This document shows positions 12,674 through 41,157 of a stretch of 59,151 nucleotides of DNA, piece after piece. Source of the stretch: a virus; the IMG/VR virus record IMGVR_UViG_3300048837_000495, positions 1 through 59,151 of that record; one strand, given 5' to 3'. The notes beneath the pieces are model-generated. The model saw only the letters and a program-made list of their open reading frames with translations, searched no databases and had not been told where the DNA came from. The position numbers were made by a program, and so were the translations under genes. How positions within the stretch are numbered: the first letter of the stretch is position 1; each line of letters begins with the position of its first letter.

Positions 12674-13636
12674 ATGAGCGAAGTGACCAACGATGCAGGA
12701 TTGACAGACGACGCCTTCGATTTGGCGTTTGAAGCCGCGCTGGCGGAACCGGAAACTCCAGGAGCCGAGGACGCCTCGGTTCAGGACGAAGCCGCCGCTG
12801 CCAACGGGCAGGCCGATAACGACGCGGCCGGTGCTGACGCCGACGCTGATAAAGAAAAAGCCGATGCGGATGCTGCCGCCAAAGCGGAAGCCGACGCTGC
12901 CGTCGCCGCTAAGGCCGCGGCCGATGCCGAGGTTGCAAAAACTGAGGCTGCTAAAGCCGCACCTCCTTCTCCCGCCCAAAAAAAGCCCGCTGTTGACCCG
13001 GCTGCCGAAGCCGCGGCTAAAGCGAAGAAGGAGGCTGATGACGCCGAGGCAAAGCGCCTTGCCGACGAGGCAAGGGCGAAAGAGGCCTATACCGAGGACG
13101 AGATCGCGGCAGTCAACGAGACGGCTACCAACTTCCCGGAAGTGGCCAAAGCCCTCAAGGCGGTTGAGCGAGTGGCGTTTGTGAAGGCCGAGAACGCCTT
13201 CAATGCCAAGCTCGCCGAGATGGCCGCGCAATTCGCCCAGCAGATCGCTCCGCTTACCAGTGTCGTGCAGCGCACTGCCCAGAATGAACATGAGGCCGCT
13301 ATTCTCAAGGTCCATCCCGACGCATTTACCATCTTACCGCAAGTTGAGCAGTGGGCAGAGACTCAACCCAGTATTCTCAAGAACGCATACAACGCGGTGC
13401 TTGATAAAGGAAGCACCCAAGACATAATCGAGCTGTTCACCGTGTATAAGGAAGCGACCAAAGCGGTTACGCCGCCGGCCGCTCCAGCGGTTGACGAAGC
13501 AGCGAAGCAGCAGGAAGTTGAAAAGCAAAAACGGCTTGAAGCGCAGGAAGGTGTGCGGGGGAGAAACACCAGCGGGCGGGCCACAGTAGACCCCGACGAT
13601 TTTGACGGGGCCTTTGAAAAGTTCGCCGCAGCATAA
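12674..13636 (+). CDS. scaffolding protein
   Basis: 320 residues between portal and capsid. The N-terminal half is a very Ala/Asp/Glu/Lys-rich low-complexity helix (residues about 15-145), the middle is helical (VAKALKAVERVAFVKAENAFNAKLAEMAAQFAQQI), and the C-terminus is basic then acidic (VRGRNTSGRATVDPDDFDGAFEKF). Acid-rich, helical, non-catalytic proteins in this position act as internal scaffolds that shape the procapsid and then leave. The assignment rests on composition and position. Confidence 0.8.
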   Translation: MSEVTNDAGLTDDAFDLAFEAALAEPETPGAEDASVQDEAAAANGQADNDAAGADADADKEKADADAAAKAEADAAVAAKAAADAEVAKTEAAKAAPPSPAQKKPAVDPAAEAAAKAKKEADDAEAKRLADEARAKEAYTEDEIAAVNETATNFPEVAKALKAVERVAFVKAENAFNAKLAEMAAQFAQQIAPLTSVVQRTAQNEHEAAILKVHPDAFTILPQVEQWAETQPSILKNAYNAVLDKGSTQDIIELFTVYKEATKAVTPPAAPAVDEAAKQQEVEKQKRLEAQEGVRGRNTSGRATVDPDDFDGAFEKFAAA

Positions 13637-13674
13637 GCGTAACGGCGTAACCCAATTGCCACAGGAGGAAAACC

Positions 13675-14682
13675 ATGGCACAAACGACTTATGGGGACAT
13701 CTCCCCCGCAGTAGCAGCAAGTGCGGCCGTCGAAATGCTCAAGCGCGGCCAGCCCAATCTGGTCATCCAGCAGTTTTTGCAGTCCAAGCCGCTCGGCAAA
13801 AACCAGACCGATACCATGAAGTTTCGTCGGTACGAGCGTCTCTCCGCGGCCACCACCGCGCTTACCGAGGGCGTAACCCCGACCGGCAGCACTCCGACCA
13901 AGACCGACTACTCGGCAACTTTGGGGCAGTACGGTGACTTCCTCGAGCTGACCGACAAGATCGCCGACATGCACACCGACCCGGTTCTCAAGGAGTACTC
14001 CGGGATGCTCGGCGAGCAGGCTGCTCTCACCCTGGACACCCTGGCGTTCAATATCTTGAAAGCCGGCACCAACTTGATTCGCGCCAATGGCGCGGCTCGT
14101 ACCGACATCAATACCCCGCTGACTCTCAATCTCCAGCGGAAGGCCGTGCGGGCGCTCAAGCGGCAGTACGGTGAGAAGATTACCTCGAAAATCTCCAGCT
14201 CCGCCAAGTTCAATACCGAGTCCGTGAAGCCGGCCTACATCGGCCTCGTCCACCCCGACATGACCTTCGTCATTCGTGACATGGTAGGGTTCAAGGATGT
14301 CGTCGACTACGGCGGCGGGATGGATATGTACATGGGCGAGATCGGGTCCGTCGAGGAGGTCCGGTATATCGAGTCCACCGTGTTCGCTCCGTGGGCCGAT
14401 GGCGGCGGTGCCAAGGCTGGGTCCGGGACTACCATGATCTCCACCGCAGGCACCCTGGCCGACGTGTACCCGGTCCTGTACCTGGCCCGTGACTGTGCCG
14501 GCGCCGTGGCGCTCAAGGGCGCTAATGCTATCACTCCCGGCGTTCTCAACCCCGGCGTCATGCGCGAAGGCGACCCCCTCGGCCAGCGTGGGTATGTCTC
14601 TTGGAAGACCTACTACACGGCCGTTATCCTCAACCAGTCGTTCATGGTTCGCGTCGAGTGCGCCATCCCCGAGTTGAGCTAA
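13675..14682 (+). CDS. major capsid protein, N4-gp56-like family
   Basis: 335 residues behind a strong ribosome site (AGGAGG). The N-terminus (TYGDISPAVAASAAVEMLKRGQPNLVIQQF) and the following KTDTMKFRRYERL-type strand and ALTEGVTPT loop match the N4-gp56 group of HK97-fold capsid proteins; FVIRDM, YMGEIGSVEEVRYIES and LYLARDCAGAVALKG are the typical A-domain elements. It builds the icosahedral head. The gene has the most regular GC-rich codon use in the window, consistent with high expression. A hairpin follows its stop. Confidence 0.9.
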   Translation: MAQTTYGDISPAVAASAAVEMLKRGQPNLVIQQFLQSKPLGKNQTDTMKFRRYERLSAATTALTEGVTPTGSTPTKTDYSATLGQYGDFLELTDKIADMHTDPVLKEYSGMLGEQAALTLDTLAFNILKAGTNLIRANGAARTDINTPLTLNLQRKAVRALKRQYGEKITSKISSSAKFNTESVKPAYIGLVHPDMTFVIRDMVGFKDVVDYGGGMDMYMGEIGSVEEVRYIESTVFAPWADGGGAKAGSGTTMISTAGTLADVYPVLYLARDCAGAVALKGANAITPGVLNPGVMREGDPLGQRGYVSWKTYYTAVILNQSFMVRVECAIPELS

Positions 14683-14694
14683 CCGATTGACAAT

Positions 14695-14716
14695 GCAGCC
14701 CCTACGCAGGGGCTGC
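14695..14716 (+). terminator. hairpin after the capsid gene
   Basis: A perfect 8-bp stem (GCAGCCCC / GGGGCTGC) with a 6-nt loop, 13 bp after the capsid stop. It is followed by ACTACTTTCTTG rather than a clean T run, so it may be an attenuator or an RNA-stabilising stem rather than a full terminator. Confidence 0.55.
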
Positions 14717-14741
14717 ACTACTTTCTTGCAAGGAGCAAGCT

Positions 14742-25448: not shown

Positions 25449-26558
25449 ATGGCAGCTCTGCTTGAAGATCGCGCAAAAGTACAATTCCCGTTGATGAGCC
25501 TTGGCTCGGCTCTTGGACTCACACAGCGGCCCGCCGCTATGCCTATCGTGGCTGAAAATACCCCAATCGTAAGTGCGACCACCCCTGCCCCGGCTGCTGC
25601 GGCTACTCCCCCCGGCCAAAGCCAAGGGGCAGTGGGTTTTCGTCCTCGTCCGGTTCTGCTTGGCGCCCCCGGCGGTGTTATGCGCGTTGACAACTTCCGG
25701 CAAGACCGGCCGCTTAAAGCGAGTATGCAAGCTATCGACGACACTATCGCCGGTGGCGTTGTGCCGACTTCCGAGCAGGCTTCGCAAATCACCGGACTTC
25801 GCCGCCAAGCTGGTTTCTTGCGCGGCGGGACGGACAGAGTTCCTGTCGGACCGGACGGACTCCCCATTTCTGGCCGAGGAGCGAGGTACTCAATCACGGC
25901 AGCGCCCGACGTAGCCGCACGGTTTACTGACGCGGTAGCTCCTGGAGAATACGGCCCCGAGGCAATGGCAGCAAGAGGGCTCCAGCGGCAGCAGTTTTTG
26001 GAGCGCAACGCCGCCCGCCCAGTCATGGCCGCCGCCCCGCAGCCGCTCCCGGCCCCGCAGTCTCTTGGTGAAGCGTTCGTGCGCCGAGGGGCCTTGCGGG
26101 AAATTGAGAGCGCTCGACAGGGCGCGAAGACCGAGGCCGAGATTACCGGGTTCCGTATGAACGCGGCGAACGCCGCGGAGCAGAACCGCATTGCCGCCGA
26201 AAGGAACCTCATCGCCGCTGGGAGCGAAGCGTCGGCCGCAGGTATGCGCCAGTCGCAGATGGACCTCAATGCCGCCCTTGCTCGTAAGTCCGATGCCGAG
26301 GCCGCTGCTGGGAAGTACGTCCGGCTCAAGCGGCAAGTTCCTTCGGGAGAGATTGACCCGCTTACGAACGAACCGATCATGCGCACCGAGGAGTTCCTCT
26401 ACGACCAGGCGACGAAACAGTTCATCGAGCCGAACGCCACGACTGGTGGCGCTGCACAGCCGAACGCTTTACCAGCCGTGAATACCAGGGTGGTCGGCAA
26501 GTATTATGACCTTCCGCAAGGTCGGTTTAAGTGGACCGCAAAAGGGTGGGAGAAATAA
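25449..26558 (+). CDS. internal virion protein, putative
   Basis: 369 residues behind its own promoter and a good ribosome site. Pro/Ala-rich N-terminal third (residues about 20-70, with a P-x-A-A-A-T-P-P-G linker), a helical middle with long charged segments (RREIESARQGAKTEAEI..., NAAEQNRIAAERNLIAAGSEASAAG), and a C-terminus ending RVVGKYYDLPQGRFKWTAKGWEK. The long helical content and its neighbours suggest a protein ejected with DNA. No catalytic motif seen. It overlaps the next gene by 1 bp. Confidence 0.55.
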   Translation: MAALLEDRAKVQFPLMSLGSALGLTQRPAAMPIVAENTPIVSATTPAPAAAATPPGQSQGAVGFRPRPVLLGAPGGVMRVDNFRQDRPLKASMQAIDDTIAGGVVPTSEQASQITGLRRQAGFLRGGTDRVPVGPDGLPISGRGARYSITAAPDVAARFTDAVAPGEYGPEAMAARGLQRQQFLERNAARPVMAAAPQPLPAPQSLGEAFVRRGALREIESARQGAKTEAEITGFRMNAANAAEQNRIAAERNLIAAGSEASAAGMRQSQMDLNAALARKSDAEAAAGKYVRLKRQVPSGEIDPLTNEPIMRTEEFLYDQATKQFIEPNATTGGAAQPNALPAVNTRVVGKYYDLPQGRFKWTAKGWEK

Positions 26559-28630
26559 TGGCTTACTCTGACGACGAGCTTCTAAACCTTCCGCCGGTAT
26601 CCGGCCCGCTCTCCGATGACGATCTGCTCGCGCTGCCGCCTGCGCCGAAACAGCCTCCAGTAGACCAAAACACCGGAACCACCGGTGACCTCGCCACCTC
26701 GGTCAAGCGCGGCATCCTGGACCTACCCGGCGTCGTTACTGGCCTTGCCGACCTGCCGTTCGCTCTTGCCGCCGGTATCCGCCCAGTGTCCACCGCCACC
26801 GAGTGGCTTGGAGAAAAGACCGGGTTCCGCCCCGGTAAATGGGCCGACGAGGCGAAGCAGGAGTACAGCCCCGGTTACCAGCAGGCGCAGCAGGAAATCG
26901 ATCAAGCCTGGGACGACCCGAATACTTCCGCCGTGGACGTGGCCAAGGCTTATGTCCGCAACCCTGCCTATGTCGCCAACGCGGTGGCCGAGTCGGTTCC
27001 GTCCATGCTGGCGGGTGGGCTTGCTGGAAGGGCGATCATGGGGGCCGGGGCCGTTGCCCAGGCCGTACCGGCGGTTGTCGGAGCCGAGGGTGCCGCCTCT
27101 CGCATCATCCCGCAGATGGTCGGTTATCTTGAGCGCAAGCTCGGAGAGAAGGCTGCCGCGGCCGTAGCCGGCGGAACCGGTGAGGGTTTGGTCCAGGCTG
27201 GGTCGGCTATGAACGAAGCGACCGGCGAAGACCAGCGGAAGAACGCCGTTGCCGCCCTTGGGTCCGGGCTGGTCGACGCGATCATCGGTGCTGGTGCAGG
27301 GTCTGTTGCCCAGAAGCTCGGTTTTGAGACGATCGAAACGGCCATGGCAAAAGGGTTCAACCGGATGATCGCCGACGAGGTCGACACCGCGGCGAAACTC
27401 GGTCAGCGCGTTGTTGCCAAAGGCACCCGCATGGCTGGTGGTGCCGTGGCCGAGGGTATTCTCCAGGAACTTCCGCAGAGCGCTCAGGAGCAGGTATGGG
27501 CGAACTACGCTGCTGGTAAGGATCTCTGGAACGGTGTGCCTCGTAGCGCGGTCGAGGGGGCCTTGGCCGGAATGGTAATGGGTGCTGGCGCCAACGTCGT
27601 CACCCCCGACCAAGCGAAAGCCAACGCGGCCCGCGACAAGGTCCAGAGCCAAACGCTGACCAACATCACGAAACTCCCGGTAACCGTAGAGAACGGCGTT
27701 GCCACCGTGCAAGCAGACCAGCCGTTCACCATGCCGGCGGCAGATCTCGCCGAGCATTTCGTAAGCGGTGGGACGCTTGAGACACTTCCGAAGCAACTCT
27801 GGTTTGGTGAGCGTGCTCAGTTCCAAGGGCAGGAAGCCCTCGCCCCGCAACCCGTAACGACGCAAGCTGACATTGCCTCCGCGCTTGACCGGGCCGAGTC
27901 CGACATTGCCTGGGAACAGCAGACTGAAACCGCACTTGCTCAGGCGCGAAAGAGGAACCTTCCGCAGGACACAAACCGGGCGATCGACGCGGCCATGCAG
28001 GAGTATGAGCCGGCGTTGCCCACCGGCACCAGAGCACCTGTGGCGCCTGCGCCAGAACCGACACCGGAAGTAATTACCAATGAAGGGCAGCCGTTCGCCT
28101 CTGCCAGCGCGGCAAAAGGCGCGGCGGCTAAGACCGGCAGCGCTACCTACGAAATCATCCCGCAGGGCGAAGGCTTTATTGCGCAGCGGATTGATGCCGA
28201 CCTCACCCAAGCGATCACCAAACAGGGTGGCACTGGATTTGCTACGGCGAAGGCATTGCAGCAAGTTGCTGCGAGAAACAAGATCGACCTCACCGGCTAC
28301 CGGGTAGCCGAAACGAATCGCGGGTTCATTGCTGTACCGCTCGAGAGTGCCCCCCAAGCCTCTGCGACCGCAGCGTCTTCTGCACCGGCGAGCTCACCCC
28401 GAGGGGCCGCTTCTTTGTTCTCGTCCGAGCAGGAAGCGAATTTGTTAAATACTGTTGCAGAGTCTACAGAATCGGGCTATACTGACGATGAGCTTACGTC
28501 AGTTACTGCGGTAACGTTTACACCTGGTTTTTTGGACGGAGTTACTCCAGAAAATGCAAAACAAGCGTTGGATGTTATTGACGAGGACATTGCTCTGTAC
28601 GAACAAATTCGTAAGTGTGTGAGCGGCTGA
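26558..28630 (+). CDS. internal virion/ejection protein with glycine-rich hydrophobic segments
   Basis: 690 residues from the ATG at 26558. The N-terminus holds a short duplication (DDELLNLPPVSG / DDDLLALPPAPK). Residues about 145-280 include three Gly/Ala-rich hydrophobic helices (SMLAGGLAGRAIMGAGAVAQAV, LGSGLVDAIIGAGAGSVAQ, then EGALAGMVMGAGANVV), able to insert in a membrane. The C-terminal part has two related copies of a small module (GQPFASASAAKGAAAKTGS... and GGTGFATAKALQQVAARNKI). This fits a pore-forming ejection protein. Overlaps both neighbours by 1 bp. Confidence 0.6.
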   Translation: MAYSDDELLNLPPVSGPLSDDDLLALPPAPKQPPVDQNTGTTGDLATSVKRGILDLPGVVTGLADLPFALAAGIRPVSTATEWLGEKTGFRPGKWADEAKQEYSPGYQQAQQEIDQAWDDPNTSAVDVAKAYVRNPAYVANAVAESVPSMLAGGLAGRAIMGAGAVAQAVPAVVGAEGAASRIIPQMVGYLERKLGEKAAAAVAGGTGEGLVQAGSAMNEATGEDQRKNAVAALGSGLVDAIIGAGAGSVAQKLGFETIETAMAKGFNRMIADEVDTAAKLGQRVVAKGTRMAGGAVAEGILQELPQSAQEQVWANYAAGKDLWNGVPRSAVEGALAGMVMGAGANVVTPDQAKANAARDKVQSQTLTNITKLPVTVENGVATVQADQPFTMPAADLAEHFVSGGTLETLPKQLWFGERAQFQGQEALAPQPVTTQADIASALDRAESDIAWEQQTETALAQARKRNLPQDTNRAIDAAMQEYEPALPTGTRAPVAPAPEPTPEVITNEGQPFASASAAKGAAAKTGSATYEIIPQGEGFIAQRIDADLTQAITKQGGTGFATAKALQQVAARNKIDLTGYRVAETNRGFIAVPLESAPQASATAASSAPASSPRGAASLFSSEQEANLLNTVAESTESGYTDDELTSVTAVTFTPGFLDGVTPENAKQALDVIDEDIALYEQIRKCVSG

Positions 28631-37736: not shown

Positions 37737-38044
37737 GAGCTACGGTCCAAACACTCGACCATGGCGACGGCAACCGCCGCGAGTTGAATGAGTTCCGTGC
37801 GGTAGTTTTCCCAGTTCCCGGTTGACTCGTAGCCGGAGAAGTGCGCCTCGCAGACGGCTTTGCAAACCTCGCCGAACTCTTCCCCGAGGATAGACAACCA
37901 TTCGGGCGGGGTGTGGTTCTGCTCACCCCATTTCGCATCTTGACGCCGGCGTTCTTCCTGCACTTCGGAGAGAACGGAGTTGGTTTCTTTTACGGCAAGT
38001 AACCGGCCTACCATCTCTTGCAATCCTGGTGTTGGGCATCTCAT
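37724..38044 (-). CDS. MazG-like nucleotide pyrophosphohydrolase family protein
   Basis: 106 residues. VLSEVQEERRRQDAKWGEQNHTPPEWLSILGEEFGEVCKAVCEAHF, then YRTELIQLAAVAVAMVECLDR is the phage MazG-like family pattern: E-ExxR-Q-x-x-KWGEQ, the EExGE(V/L) element and an RxELIQxAAVA helix with acidic metal ligands. Such proteins hydrolyse nucleoside triphosphates or lower alarmone levels. The first gene of the leftward operon's far end; its last 13 bp overlap the end of the 1327-residue gene on the other strand. It overlaps the methyltransferase stop by 4 bp. Confidence 0.75.
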   Translation of the reverse strand: MRCPTPGLQEMVGRLLAVKETNSVLSEVQEERRRQDAKWGEQNHTPPEWLSILGEEFGEVCKAVCEAHFSGYESTGNWENYRTELIQLAAVAVAMVECLDRSSHST

Positions 38045-39150
38045 GATTTCGCCTCCATTACTGTTTTGATAAATTCCGCCGCTTGCGGGGCGACGATAGC
38101 GTTACCATAGCCGCGTAGTCGTCCCACTCTTTGGGATACCCCATGAGCCAGCGTGAATGTGCCGGGTTCAACTGGCCTCCACTTTCCATCCCGGCAGAAG
38201 AGCCAATCAGCATCTCGCCAGAAGCCGTTAGTCGGCATGGGGTGGTCATCTCCGCAAGCCCCCTGATTATCCCGCCCATCAGCGCCTCGTCTTTCCTGTC
38301 GCCGCCCCGGCTCGTCTGTCCCCCCGCCATTGCGTTCGGAGTCGGCCATCCCGAAAGTGCCGCTTGAGGTGGCAACGCGCTCGAATCCGCTTGATTCGGT
38401 CCGCCGTGCGTCCCATCCGTCGCTCGTGGAGTTCCCCAACCGGCCAACGTTGCCACATCTTCTATCCGGCTCTCCTTCGCCGCTAATTGCGGGTTTTCTT
38501 CGCGGCTCTTGCATTTCCCATGAGCGCTCTGCTCCCGCGGTGTTGGCCAACCCGCCACCTTCGCACTCCTCACCAAGCAGGCGCAACCGTGCTTCGTTCC
38601 GTGGATAGCTTTCTGTGTCCTGCTTCTGCCCGTTGTGTCGTGGACTTGTGGAGTCGGCCACCCAGTAAGCTCTGTCTCTAATGTGCGGCGCACCGAGGCT
38701 CGCAGCCGGGAACGGGACAACCCCGAAGGCGTAACCCAAGGCTTCCAGGTCAGCTTGTACAAGGTTGAACCAGACGTTCGTAGCCTTGCTTGCAACCTGC
38801 TCTCCAAAAACGATTGCAGGACGGCACTGCTGGATGAGCCAATACCAGGACGGCCAGAGGTGCCGCTCGTCAGCAAACCCTTTTCCTTTGCCTGCCGCGC
38901 TGAAAGGTTGGCATGGGCACGATCCGGTCCATACAGGTCGGTCGTCTGGCCGCCCGGCAAGTCGCAATGCGTAAGACCATCCGCCGATGCCGGCGAAGAA
39001 GTGGCATTGAGAATATCCTCTGAGATCATTTGGAGTAACATCCTCGATCGAGCGTCCATCGACATCTCCCGGAGCAATCAGTCCTGCTTTTATTAACTCG
39101 CGCAACCACTGCGCGGCGAACGGATCAATTTCGTTATAATAGGCACTCAC
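38041..39150 (-). CDS. DNA (cytosine-5-)-methyltransferase
   Basis: 369 residues from a GTG overlapping the preceding stop (GTGA). Motif I is FFAGIGGWS (51-59), the catalytic motif IV is GSCPC80[11 protein letters not shown], motif VI is FGEQV (the usual Glu), motif VIII is [10 protein letters not shown], and motif X is [15 protein letters not shown] near the end. The target-recognition region (about 175-320) contains repeated LANTAG / LGNSTS / MADSER units at irregular spacing, an unusual low-complexity look. It may protect phage DNA from host restriction. A second frame stays open through almost the whole gene (see 38058-39059). Confidence 0.88.
38058..39059 (-). CDS. overlapping second-frame ORF inside the methyltransferase (GWPTP-repeat protein)
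   Basis: 333 codons on the same strand, +1 frame relative to the methyltransferase, wholly inside it. The ATG at 39059 has GGGAG 6 bp upstream. The product is Ser/Arg/Pro-rich: an N-terminal [18 protein letters not shown], a central [20 protein letters not shown], four GWPTP/GWGTP units at irregular spacing opposite the methyltransferase LANT/LGNS/MADS units, and a C-terminal [22 protein letters not shown] recall similar GWPTP-rich hypothetical proteins in other phage and bacterial genomes beside cytosine methylases. It may be a real overprinted gene or a shadow kept open by the methyltransferase sequence and GC content. Confidence 0.4.
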
Positions 39151-39727: not shown

Positions 39728-40285
39728 TTATGCTACAATCCGAGCGTCATTAACGACAAACGTATCGCCAGCGTTCAAAATAGTGTTCCAAACCAGCATA
39801 GGTGCGCCGCTTCGCGCAGACCTACTTATCATACCGGAGATGAAACACAGCCAATTGTCGTTAGAAACTATTTCAAACAGCACCGCTGTTCCGCTTTCAA
39901 CTACTTCGAGTTGTAACTCTTTGAACGGGTGGCCTCCTACGTTTGTGTTATACGCTAGGATCTTCGTATCTGCTTGCGGATCATCGCAACCGTAAACATA
40001 CATAGCGCAGTTGCTAAATATCTCGTTTATACTCCACCCATATATCAATCGTGTTTGCACCTCCAGCGAAACAAAGGCCGGGTCTGCGACATCCTCTAGT
40101 GAAACAAAGCCCGGATCTGCGACATCCTCCGGCTTCAATGACGAAACAAAGACCGGATCTGCGACATCCTCCAGCTCCCGCAACGAACGCGGAGAAAGTA
40201 CACGCTCAATCTCGTCTATCTTAGCTAACACAGACTCGTCAGCAATACGATTTCTCAGTTTCTTTAGTAGCTTTTTCAGTTTCAT
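39728..40285 (-). CDS. unknown protein with EDVADPxFVS repeats
   Basis: 185 residues from the ATG at 40285, behind GGAGGAG. Basic helical N-terminus (MKLKKLLKKLRNRIADES), then three copies of an ELEDVADPVFVS / PEDVADPGFVS / LEDVADPAFVS unit (residues about 35-75) matching 30-bp DNA repeats, then a compact domain (LIYGWSINEIFSNCAMYVYGCDDPQADTKILAYNTNVGG...). No family recognised. The repeated linker may set the distance between the two parts and vary in copy number between isolates. Confidence 0.6.
   Translation of the reverse strand: MKLKKLLKKLRNRIADESVLAKIDEIERVLSPRSLRELEDVADPVFVSSLKPEDVADPGFVSLEDVADPAFVSLEVQTRLIYGWSINEIFSNCAMYVYGCDDPQADTKILAYNTNVGGHPFKELQLEVVESGTAVLFEIVSNDNWLCFISGMISRSARSGAPMLVWNTILNAGDTFVVNDARIVA
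40068..40172. repeat. three 30-bp direct repeats inside the 39728-40285 gene
   Basis: Copies at 40068-40097, 40101-40130 and 40143-40172, separated by 3 and 12 bp, differ at about two or three positions each. They encode the EDVADPxFVS units. The changing spacer lengths (3 and 12, both multiples of 3) keep the frame, so copy number can vary without breaking the gene. Confidence 0.85.
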
Positions 40286-41157
40286 ACTATCTCCTCCCAA
40301 GGCACCATGCTCATAAGCCGACGCATGTCTGGATGCGCTGACGGTGCGGTTCTGAGTTTCTTAATATGCGCCCACTCGGAGGCGTCGGCAGTGACTACGA
40401 TCTCGGTGCGCAGTGCGTTGGGAAGGACTGCGCGGGCTTGTTGAGGGGATAGACCATCATTCAGCATCACACCATACCTGTACTCTGCACTAATACAGGA
40501 GTCCTCAAACATTTCTCTGGAAACCTTGTTCCATCCGTCAAACCCCGCCGGCGCAACAAACTCCATTTCCTTCCCACCGTAGTTAACATACCTCGTGCTC
40601 TCCTGGGCAAAAGAACACGGGCGGTGACGTACCAGCTCATGCGACACGCCTCGGTCACAAATAAAGCGCACAGTGTGGCGGTGCAGTTCGGGAGGGATTT
40701 CGTCGAAGGGGCAGGGCATCCATTGAGTCTCGGGGCCGACAAGCGGCTTTCCGCAACGGAACAGGCTGCCGTACATAGTAAGAAACGGCGAAAAAAGCGA
40801 AGGCCTCCATCCAAGCGCACTTCCTCGCTGATACCATGCAGTAAGATTTCCGCCGACAACAACGTAATATCCGTCTACCGACCTGGCTACGTTGAGATAC
40901 TTACCTGCTACGTCTCTAATGTATTGAAGATTATCAAAGCTCGAGTCAAGTATTCGGACCACAAAGTTCGAGTGCTCAACCATTGCCAGATGCCCTGCGG
41001 CAATCAGCTTCCGCACGAACTTCTCGGCGCTGCCTGGTGTGATTTTATCCTCTGACCGGTAGCAGGTACGCCCGGCCATCTCGATAAATTTCAGAGTGCC
41101 TTCGTAATCGGTTGGAACTTTTCCAAGATAGTGTGCTTCGGGTTTTACTATTTTCAT
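40282..41157 (-). CDS. thyX: flavin-dependent thymidylate synthase
   Basis: 291 residues from the ATG at 41157, chosen because AAAGAGG lies about 9 bp upstream; a longer frame start has no ribosome site. The ThyX signature R177-HRPCSFAQESTR189 (RHRxxSxxxxSxR) is complete. The enzyme makes dTMP from dUMP with FAD, NADPH and methylene-tetrahydrofolate and supports phage DNA synthesis. At about 290 residues it is longer than many ThyX proteins (220-250); the insert (about 95-160: GYYVVVGGNLTAWYQRGSALGWRPSL...) is common in phage forms. Overlaps the next gene by 4 bp. Confidence 0.92.
   Translation of the reverse strand: MKIVKPEAHYLGKVPTDYEGTLKFIEMAGRTCYRSEDKITPGSAEKFVRKLIAAGHLAMVEHSNFVVRILDSSFDNLQYIRDVAGKYLNVARSVDGYYVVVGGNLTAWYQRGSALGWRPSLFSPFLTMYGSLFRCGKPLVGPETQWMPCPFDEIPPELHRHTVRFICDRGVSHELVRHRPCSFAQESTRYVNYGGKEMEFVAPAGFDGWNKVSREMFEDSCISAEYRYGVMLNDGLSPQQARAVLPNALRTEIVVTADASEWAHIKKLRTAPSAHPDMRRLMSMVPWEEIV

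Follow-up and report, generated by a model that had tools for sequence, protein, structure and literature searches.

Does a second frame that stays open almost end to end inside the gene of a viral cytosine methyltransferase encode a protein, and what would that protein do? The question is raised by a locus of IMG/VR record IMGVR_UViG_3300048837_000495, of which the whole analysed stretch of 59,151 nt is called the window here. The methyltransferase chain, alpha, has 369 aa and runs on the minus strand from a GTG at 39150, which overlaps the stop of the upstream gene, to a stop at 38041. The second frame, beta, lies in the +1 frame of alpha and runs for 333 aa from an ATG at 39057–39059 to a stop at 38058; its stop-to-stop length is 339 codons against the 369 codons of alpha from GTG 39150. 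The original prediction had described a 333-codon frame at 38058–39059 on the same strand as the methyltransferase, with a ribosome site, repeat motifs opposed to those of the methyltransferase and a distinctive end of 12 residues. These coordinates are confirmed to the base on the minus strand, GGGAG is present 6 nt before the beta ATG, and the distinctive end is located at 38124–38168. Because the GWPTP/GWGTP units of beta lie exactly on the VADST/LANTA/LGNST/MADSE units of alpha with a 2-nt shift, each opposed pair of motifs is a single 15-base unit with two readings. The features are as follows.

38041–39150, minus strand: alpha, candidate large-domain chain of a C5-cytosine DNA methyltransferase with motifs I–VIII and X (PF00145, phrog_363, AF2)
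38058–39059, minus strand: beta, 333-codon gene nested in alpha and read +1 to it; putative small-domain subunit with target recognition and motif IX (phrog_1008, selection, homology to single-chain enzymes)
39066–39070, minus strand: Shine-Dalgarno-like GGGAG for beta, 6 nt 5' of the ATG (family-level enrichment of Shine-Dalgarno site plus start)
39057–39059, minus strand: proposed beta start ATG; other in-frame ATGs at 39039–39041 and 39027–39029
39121–39141, minus strand: alpha YYNEIDP, motif II-like, ahead of motif I
38980–38997, minus strand: alpha FAGIGG, motif I
38902–38916, minus strand: alpha PCQPF, motif IV with the catalytic cysteine
38671–38694, minus strand: alpha GAPHIRDR, motif VIII
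38685–38825, minus strand: beta helix and beta-hairpin (AVLQSF...LRASVRR), overlapping alpha motifs VI–VIII; AF2 pLDDT mostly 70–86, alpha synonymous codons near-frozen
38649–38663, minus strand: beta unit 1, GWPTP; alpha reading VADST
38538–38552, minus strand: beta unit 2, GWPTP; alpha reading LANTA
38427–38441, minus strand: beta unit 3, GWGTP; alpha reading LGNST
38337–38351, minus strand: beta unit 4, GWPTP; alpha reading MADSE
38227–38613, minus strand: DNA for alpha residues 180–308, relaxed and predicted unfolded in the alpha frame, constrained in the beta frame
38124–38168, minus strand: beta motif IX equivalent of 15 residues; strong conservation in both frames
38095–38112, minus strand: alpha GYGNAI, motif X by comparison with single-chain enzymes

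The +1 frame is kept open in relatives, which were gathered in two ways, by searching with beta and by searching with alpha. It is open for at least 255 codons in 143 of 143 distinct homologous viral loci, with a mean of 323 codons, against 154 codons after synonymous-codon shuffling of alpha; the mean of the +2 frame across these loci is 60 codons. A broken second frame beside an intact methyltransferase, which the original prediction had named as its refutation, occurs in none of the 143. In each of the 70 loci picked by alpha alone, the open +1 frame spans 70% or more of the gene. For the window gene, 0.045% of 20,000 synonymous-codon shuffles match the observed +1 length, the shuffle mean being 156 codons. 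In bacterial genomes, alpha lies at offset +1 in 80 of the 80 loci picked by the beta profile, and both frames are intact in 78. The original prediction had mentioned similar GWPTP proteins beside Dcm-type genes; such proteins do exist, but at these 80 loci they are encoded inside the methyltransferase gene rather than beside it. Both frames are also present in remote relatives read singly (N15, K1G, KLEP18-1, Bas76, SBP, KMB43, ABMM1 and E. coli loci). In two of the 80 genomic loci (L259 and L272), alpha is interrupted and beta is open, for which decay and sequencing error are both possible.

Purifying selection acts on both frames, as in an overlapping same-strand gene pair. In the substitution test, single changes in 35 independent gene pairs were sorted, frame by frame, into silent and changing ones and set against opportunity; this is a simplified overlap test that takes only sites with unchanged neighbours, applies a fixed transition weight of 2 and handles kinship solely by using each sequence once. 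Over the whole overlap, the dN/dS-like ratio is 0.128 for alpha (bootstrap 0.10–0.16), counting alpha changes relative to the silent rate where beta changes, and 0.122 for beta by the reverse count (bootstrap 0.10–0.15). With the +2 frame, the calculation yields 6.9 and hence no constraint. Before the start of beta, alpha has the pattern of a normal gene, with third positions most variable and a silent/changing ratio of 22. In the middle region, beta is constrained (0.086) and alpha is relaxed (0.42), and the most variable site is the first position of alpha, which is the third position of beta. The ratio of alpha-silent to beta-silent changes there is 0.20, compared with 6.0 in the corresponding region of single-chain enzymes. 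In the C-terminal part, the two frames are equally constrained. In the N-terminal region of beta, dNN/dNS is 0.27 versus 0.35 in the single-chain control; because the substitution test cannot separate the two, the synonymous test carries the case there.

The synonymous-codon test covered 104 loci less than 85% identical. Synonymous homogeneity of alpha is 0.68–0.76 at codons 91–168 and 0.79 at codons 305–341, where 0.31–0.39 is expected; it is 0.44 against an expected 0.38 before beta, and 0.47 against 0.41 in the first stretch of beta. Individual alpha codons are frozen: Pro329 is CCC in 93 of 93 sequences, Ala150 is GCG in 96 of 96, and Val119 is GTT in 97 of 97. The constraint on beta sets in at about alpha codon 82, well ahead of the repeats, and no clear constraint was found in the first part of beta, opposite alpha codons 31–60. 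The two checks put forward with the original prediction, synonymous-site conservation and selection in both frames, thus strongly favour the second frame, and purifying selection in the +1 frame of the 35 pairs agrees with its description of a large overprinted gene tied to a DNA-modifying enzyme.

Initiation signals for beta are also conserved. Among 71 dereplicated loci, 63% have an ATG in the beta frame preceded at 4–10 nt by a Shine-Dalgarno-like site, whereas 11% is expected from redrawing the alpha codons (maximum 22.5% in 300 redraws). The otherwise uncommon arginine codon AGG is sited exactly so as to form the Shine-Dalgarno site in 26 of 69 cases, compared with 187 of 2,224 arginine codons overall. 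No special RNA fold was detected at the beta start of the window (z 0.76). On this comparative evidence, beta is almost certainly a real protein-coding gene.

Alpha matches PF00145 (E 8.5e-15) and phrog_363 (E 9e-89), and it carries the catalytic PCQ and the cofactor-binding motifs of a C5-methyltransferase. Its matches are of the HhaI type by both sequence and fold, the best PDB fold match having an E value of 4.4e-6. The original prediction held that the methyltransferase has all its motifs. This is right for motifs I–VIII and X, the motif set of an EcoHK31I-type large chain, but motif IX was not found in alpha, and the motif order is unusual, so that the ten motifs do not stand in canonical order in one chain. 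The profile of alpha matches single-chain enzymes over residues 2–183 only, covering motifs II–VIII (E 9e-18). In single-chain enzymes, motif X directly follows motif IX; here, GYGNAI appears in the alpha frame just past the conserved end of beta. AF2 models the catalytic part of alpha mostly at pLDDT above 85 and the last helix with confidence, and residues 180–308 at about 30–40. The suggestion that the odd target-recognition region of alpha may be a by-product of beta is supported by the reversed selection and the very low predicted order there. The segment with motifs II and III (YYNEIDP...GDVD) precedes motif I FAGIGG in the window (38980–39141) and does so family-wide; the AF2 strands follow this order, which is a local permutation relative to HhaI.

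Beta matches phrog_1008 (E 1.5e-35), whose members are annotated as 'DNA methyltransferase', and has no match in Pfam or NCBIfam. A profile of 46 betas was compared with one built from 25 single-chain enzymes, which come from actinophages and, in one case, from a Streptomyces plasmid. The two align with an hhalign probability of 93.9 (E 1.6e-7) over the LPTP repeats and motif IX of the single-chain enzymes, and beta thereby qualifies as a small chain with motif IX of the EcoHK31I type. The likeness is visible by eye between LLPTPSAANGAGGQTSRSGDRGDELLLGGI and RLTAAFPEWMMGWPAGWVT of Mycobacterium phage Hamulus gp68 and stretches of 28 and 17 residues of the window beta. When an alpha-beta-alpha chain was joined by hand, the Pfam score did not rise (55.1 versus 55.4 bits), and the NCBIfam dcm score rose by only 4 bits (42.0 versus 38.1). 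Both the Pfam and the NCBIfam dcm model perform poorly towards the C-terminus: even the single-chain Hamulus enzyme is matched by them only to residue 183–185. Because the joined chain brings hardly any gain in score, the assignment of motif IX to beta rests on the profile comparison and on the visible match to the actinophage enzymes. Neither beta nor its profile matched any sequence in the PDB. The AF2 model of beta has a mean pLDDT of 54, with residues 82–129 (helix and hairpin) as its sole confident part; it is too poor for a whole-fold comparison, and its best viral structure matches are homologous phage proteins.

Beta is thus homologous to the part of single-chain enzymes that holds target recognition and motif IX, which suggests that it is a subunit of the enzyme to which alpha belongs. 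In the two-domain structure of these enzymes, the large domain comprises motifs I–VIII and X, the small one target recognition and motif IX (PMC3404938). Together with the distribution of motifs at the locus, this suggests that alpha corresponds to the large domain and beta to the small domain. The locus thus very probably encodes a heterodimeric C5-cytosine methyltransferase, in which alpha is the catalytic large domain and beta is a DNA-reading small-domain subunit. A single enzyme would then be produced from one DNA stretch through two reading frames. Alpha would bind the cofactor, catalyse the reaction (PCQ) and contribute motif X as its C-terminal helix. Beta would start at its own ribosome site inside the alpha gene and, read in the +1 frame, would consist of an N-terminal helix-hairpin, WPTP-type target-recognition modules and motif IX. 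The two chains would assemble, and beta would pick the sequence to be methylated. In the middle of the gene, the beta frame would be the one that matters, and the LANT/LGNS/MADS reading of alpha would be tolerated, probably as a flexible link between motifs VIII and X. We infer translation in vivo, physical association, the need for both chains and sequence specificity from these comparisons.

Beta could instead overprint the methyltransferase as an independent regulator, anti-restriction factor or chaperone, and its N-terminal part indeed has no counterpart in the single-chain enzyme compared. We consider this very unlikely because single-chain enzymes have their target-recognition region and motif IX where the middle and end of beta align, no motif IX is found in alpha, and beta occurs without alpha in 0 of 80 genomic loci. 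It is highly improbable as well that ribosomes on alpha make a fused catalytic and target-recognition chain by programmed frameshifting into +1. A shift just ahead of the repeats would restore the order of the single-chain enzyme, and split-frame relatives are known among the loci compared. However, one shift alone would leave out motif X, since this motif lies in the alpha frame past the conserved end of beta, and entry at the repeats would explain neither the onset of constraint at about alpha codon 82 nor the enrichment of Shine-Dalgarno sites with ATG. That the second frame is untranslated and kept open by codon bias or a nucleotide-level element is refuted for practical purposes: long silent frames are common in GC-rich genes, as the shuffle mean of the window gene illustrates, but the amino-acid-level constraint in +1 and not in +2, the codon-position rates reversed in mid-gene, alpha synonymous codons frozen over hundreds of bases, the enriched start signals and a start region with no unusual RNA fold all speak against it.

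The heterodimeric reading has parallels among known enzymes, and the closest precedent, judged by its described arrangement, appears to be M.EcoHK31I. The gene of the large chain of M.EcoHK31I also encodes the small chain, in an alternative frame, and the nested frame of the window locus lies in the same way. M.EcoHK31I (YGGCCR) is a two-polypeptide C5-methyltransferase of E. coli (Lee et al. 1995, as described in PMC3404938), with motifs I–VIII and X in the large chain and motif IX in the small chain (PMC3404938), as in alpha and beta. However, its target-recognition domain is predicted in the large chain, whereas the window locus has a conserved one in beta (0.086) and an alpha middle that is relaxed (0.42) and predicted unfolded. 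Furthermore, M.EcoHK31I is part of a restriction-modification system, whereas no nuclease family, and so no restriction endonuclease, was found among the flanking genes scanned in the window (DUF6378, ThyX, DUF927 and a helicase). M.EcoHK31I itself was sought in complete E. coli genomes with phage N15 as the query; the inspected loci were phage-related, and none was identified as EcoHK31I. Elsewhere in the window, ORF 39728–40300 contains a short tandem repeat (40060–40187) that reads as LEDVADPxFVS repeats. Two long antisense open frames lie on the minus strand, one of 544 aa (26723–28357) opposite a 699-aa plus-strand ORF (26531–28630) and one of 451 aa (13363–14718) opposite a 335-aa plus-strand ORF (13675–14682).

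M.AquI (CYCGRG) is a split C5-methyltransferase with its catalytic and target-recognition parts on separate chains (PMC3404938). It shares the two-chain split with alpha and beta, and the mycobacteriophage locus L220 resembles it. In M.AquI, however, the small chain also has motif X, whereas at the window locus alpha carries that motif and the second gene lies within the first over nearly the whole length. In L220 (1884–2997), the catalytic ORF ends after motif VIII, and target recognition, motif IX and motif X are in an overlapping +1 ORF with an overlap of about 180 nt; L382 and L383 are similar. Matches likewise extend past the end of the catalytic ORF in about 30 mycobacteriophage relatives of L220 (L218–L245), and for this type of split, two chains or a frameshift product are both possible. 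Single-chain LPTP-repeat C5-methyltransferases, such as Hamulus gp68, and enzymes of the M.HhaI type have the same catalytic fold as alpha and share the signature of target recognition and motif IX with beta, but they form one continuous chain instead of two frames. Hamulus, L381 and L389 represent other ARRANGEMENTS of the same domains in one chain. The nested form also occurs in Paenibacillus-type phages such as Likha, whose alpha has the canonical motif order; among relatives of Likha beta, the offset is +1 in 57 of 60. A plausible path starts from a single-chain ancestor, in which paired frameshifts would have put target recognition and motif IX in the +1 frame while motifs I–VIII and X stayed in place.

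The window locus belongs to the phage 'DNA methyltransferase' families phrog_363 (alpha) and phrog_1008 (beta), with which the 'Mte8-like protein' of K1 phages and the methylases of epsilon15, N15 and BcepC6B are grouped. Some phage records of this type annotate both frames, and most annotate only one. The gene pair is carried by N15 as well as by epsilon15. In the sources searched, no statement was found that the phrog_363 and phrog_1008 products form one enzyme, and the literature search found no paper describing the overlap. The nested pair is widespread in Proteobacteria and their phages and in relatives from Firmicutes phages. In RefSeq, only alpha is annotated under every match listed for 63 complete E. 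coli genomes. None of the inspected E. coli loci (L331–L336) has a beta CDS, and alpha is a pseudogene in one strain (L336). On a Sphingomonas paeninsulae plasmid (L402, 950–2041), the annotation is reversed: it lists the beta frame as a hypothetical protein and omits the alpha frame.

The repeats of beta vary greatly within the family. The 503 segments between WPTP-type units in 185 betas have a median length of 32 aa and fall into 141 families at 50% identity, arranged in 145 distinct orders. Common families occur at varying positions in 3–15 different neighbour contexts each. At the protein level, this mosaicism looks like modular target recognition. At the DNA level, recent module exchange is not evident, as less than 1% of pairs sharing a module are more than 10 points more similar there than in the slowly evolving hairpin region. 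We tentatively suggest that beta may be a swappable DNA-reading subunit, whose interchangeable WPTP units are duplicated, lost or recombined by phages, possibly giving changing and even multiple specificity. The DNA of such modules would have to stay open in the alpha frame, where it would be read as a meaningless connector.

The locus is among the clearer cases of a long same-strand nested gene with a mechanistic reason, in that each frame would encode one domain of the enzyme. Should activity depend on beta, alpha expressed alone would give no methylation or altered methylation, and a specificity assigned from the 'target-recognition region' of alpha would be drawn from the by-product of the other frame. 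The alpha/beta locus also offers a natural test case for the origin of overlapping genes from a single-chain ancestor.
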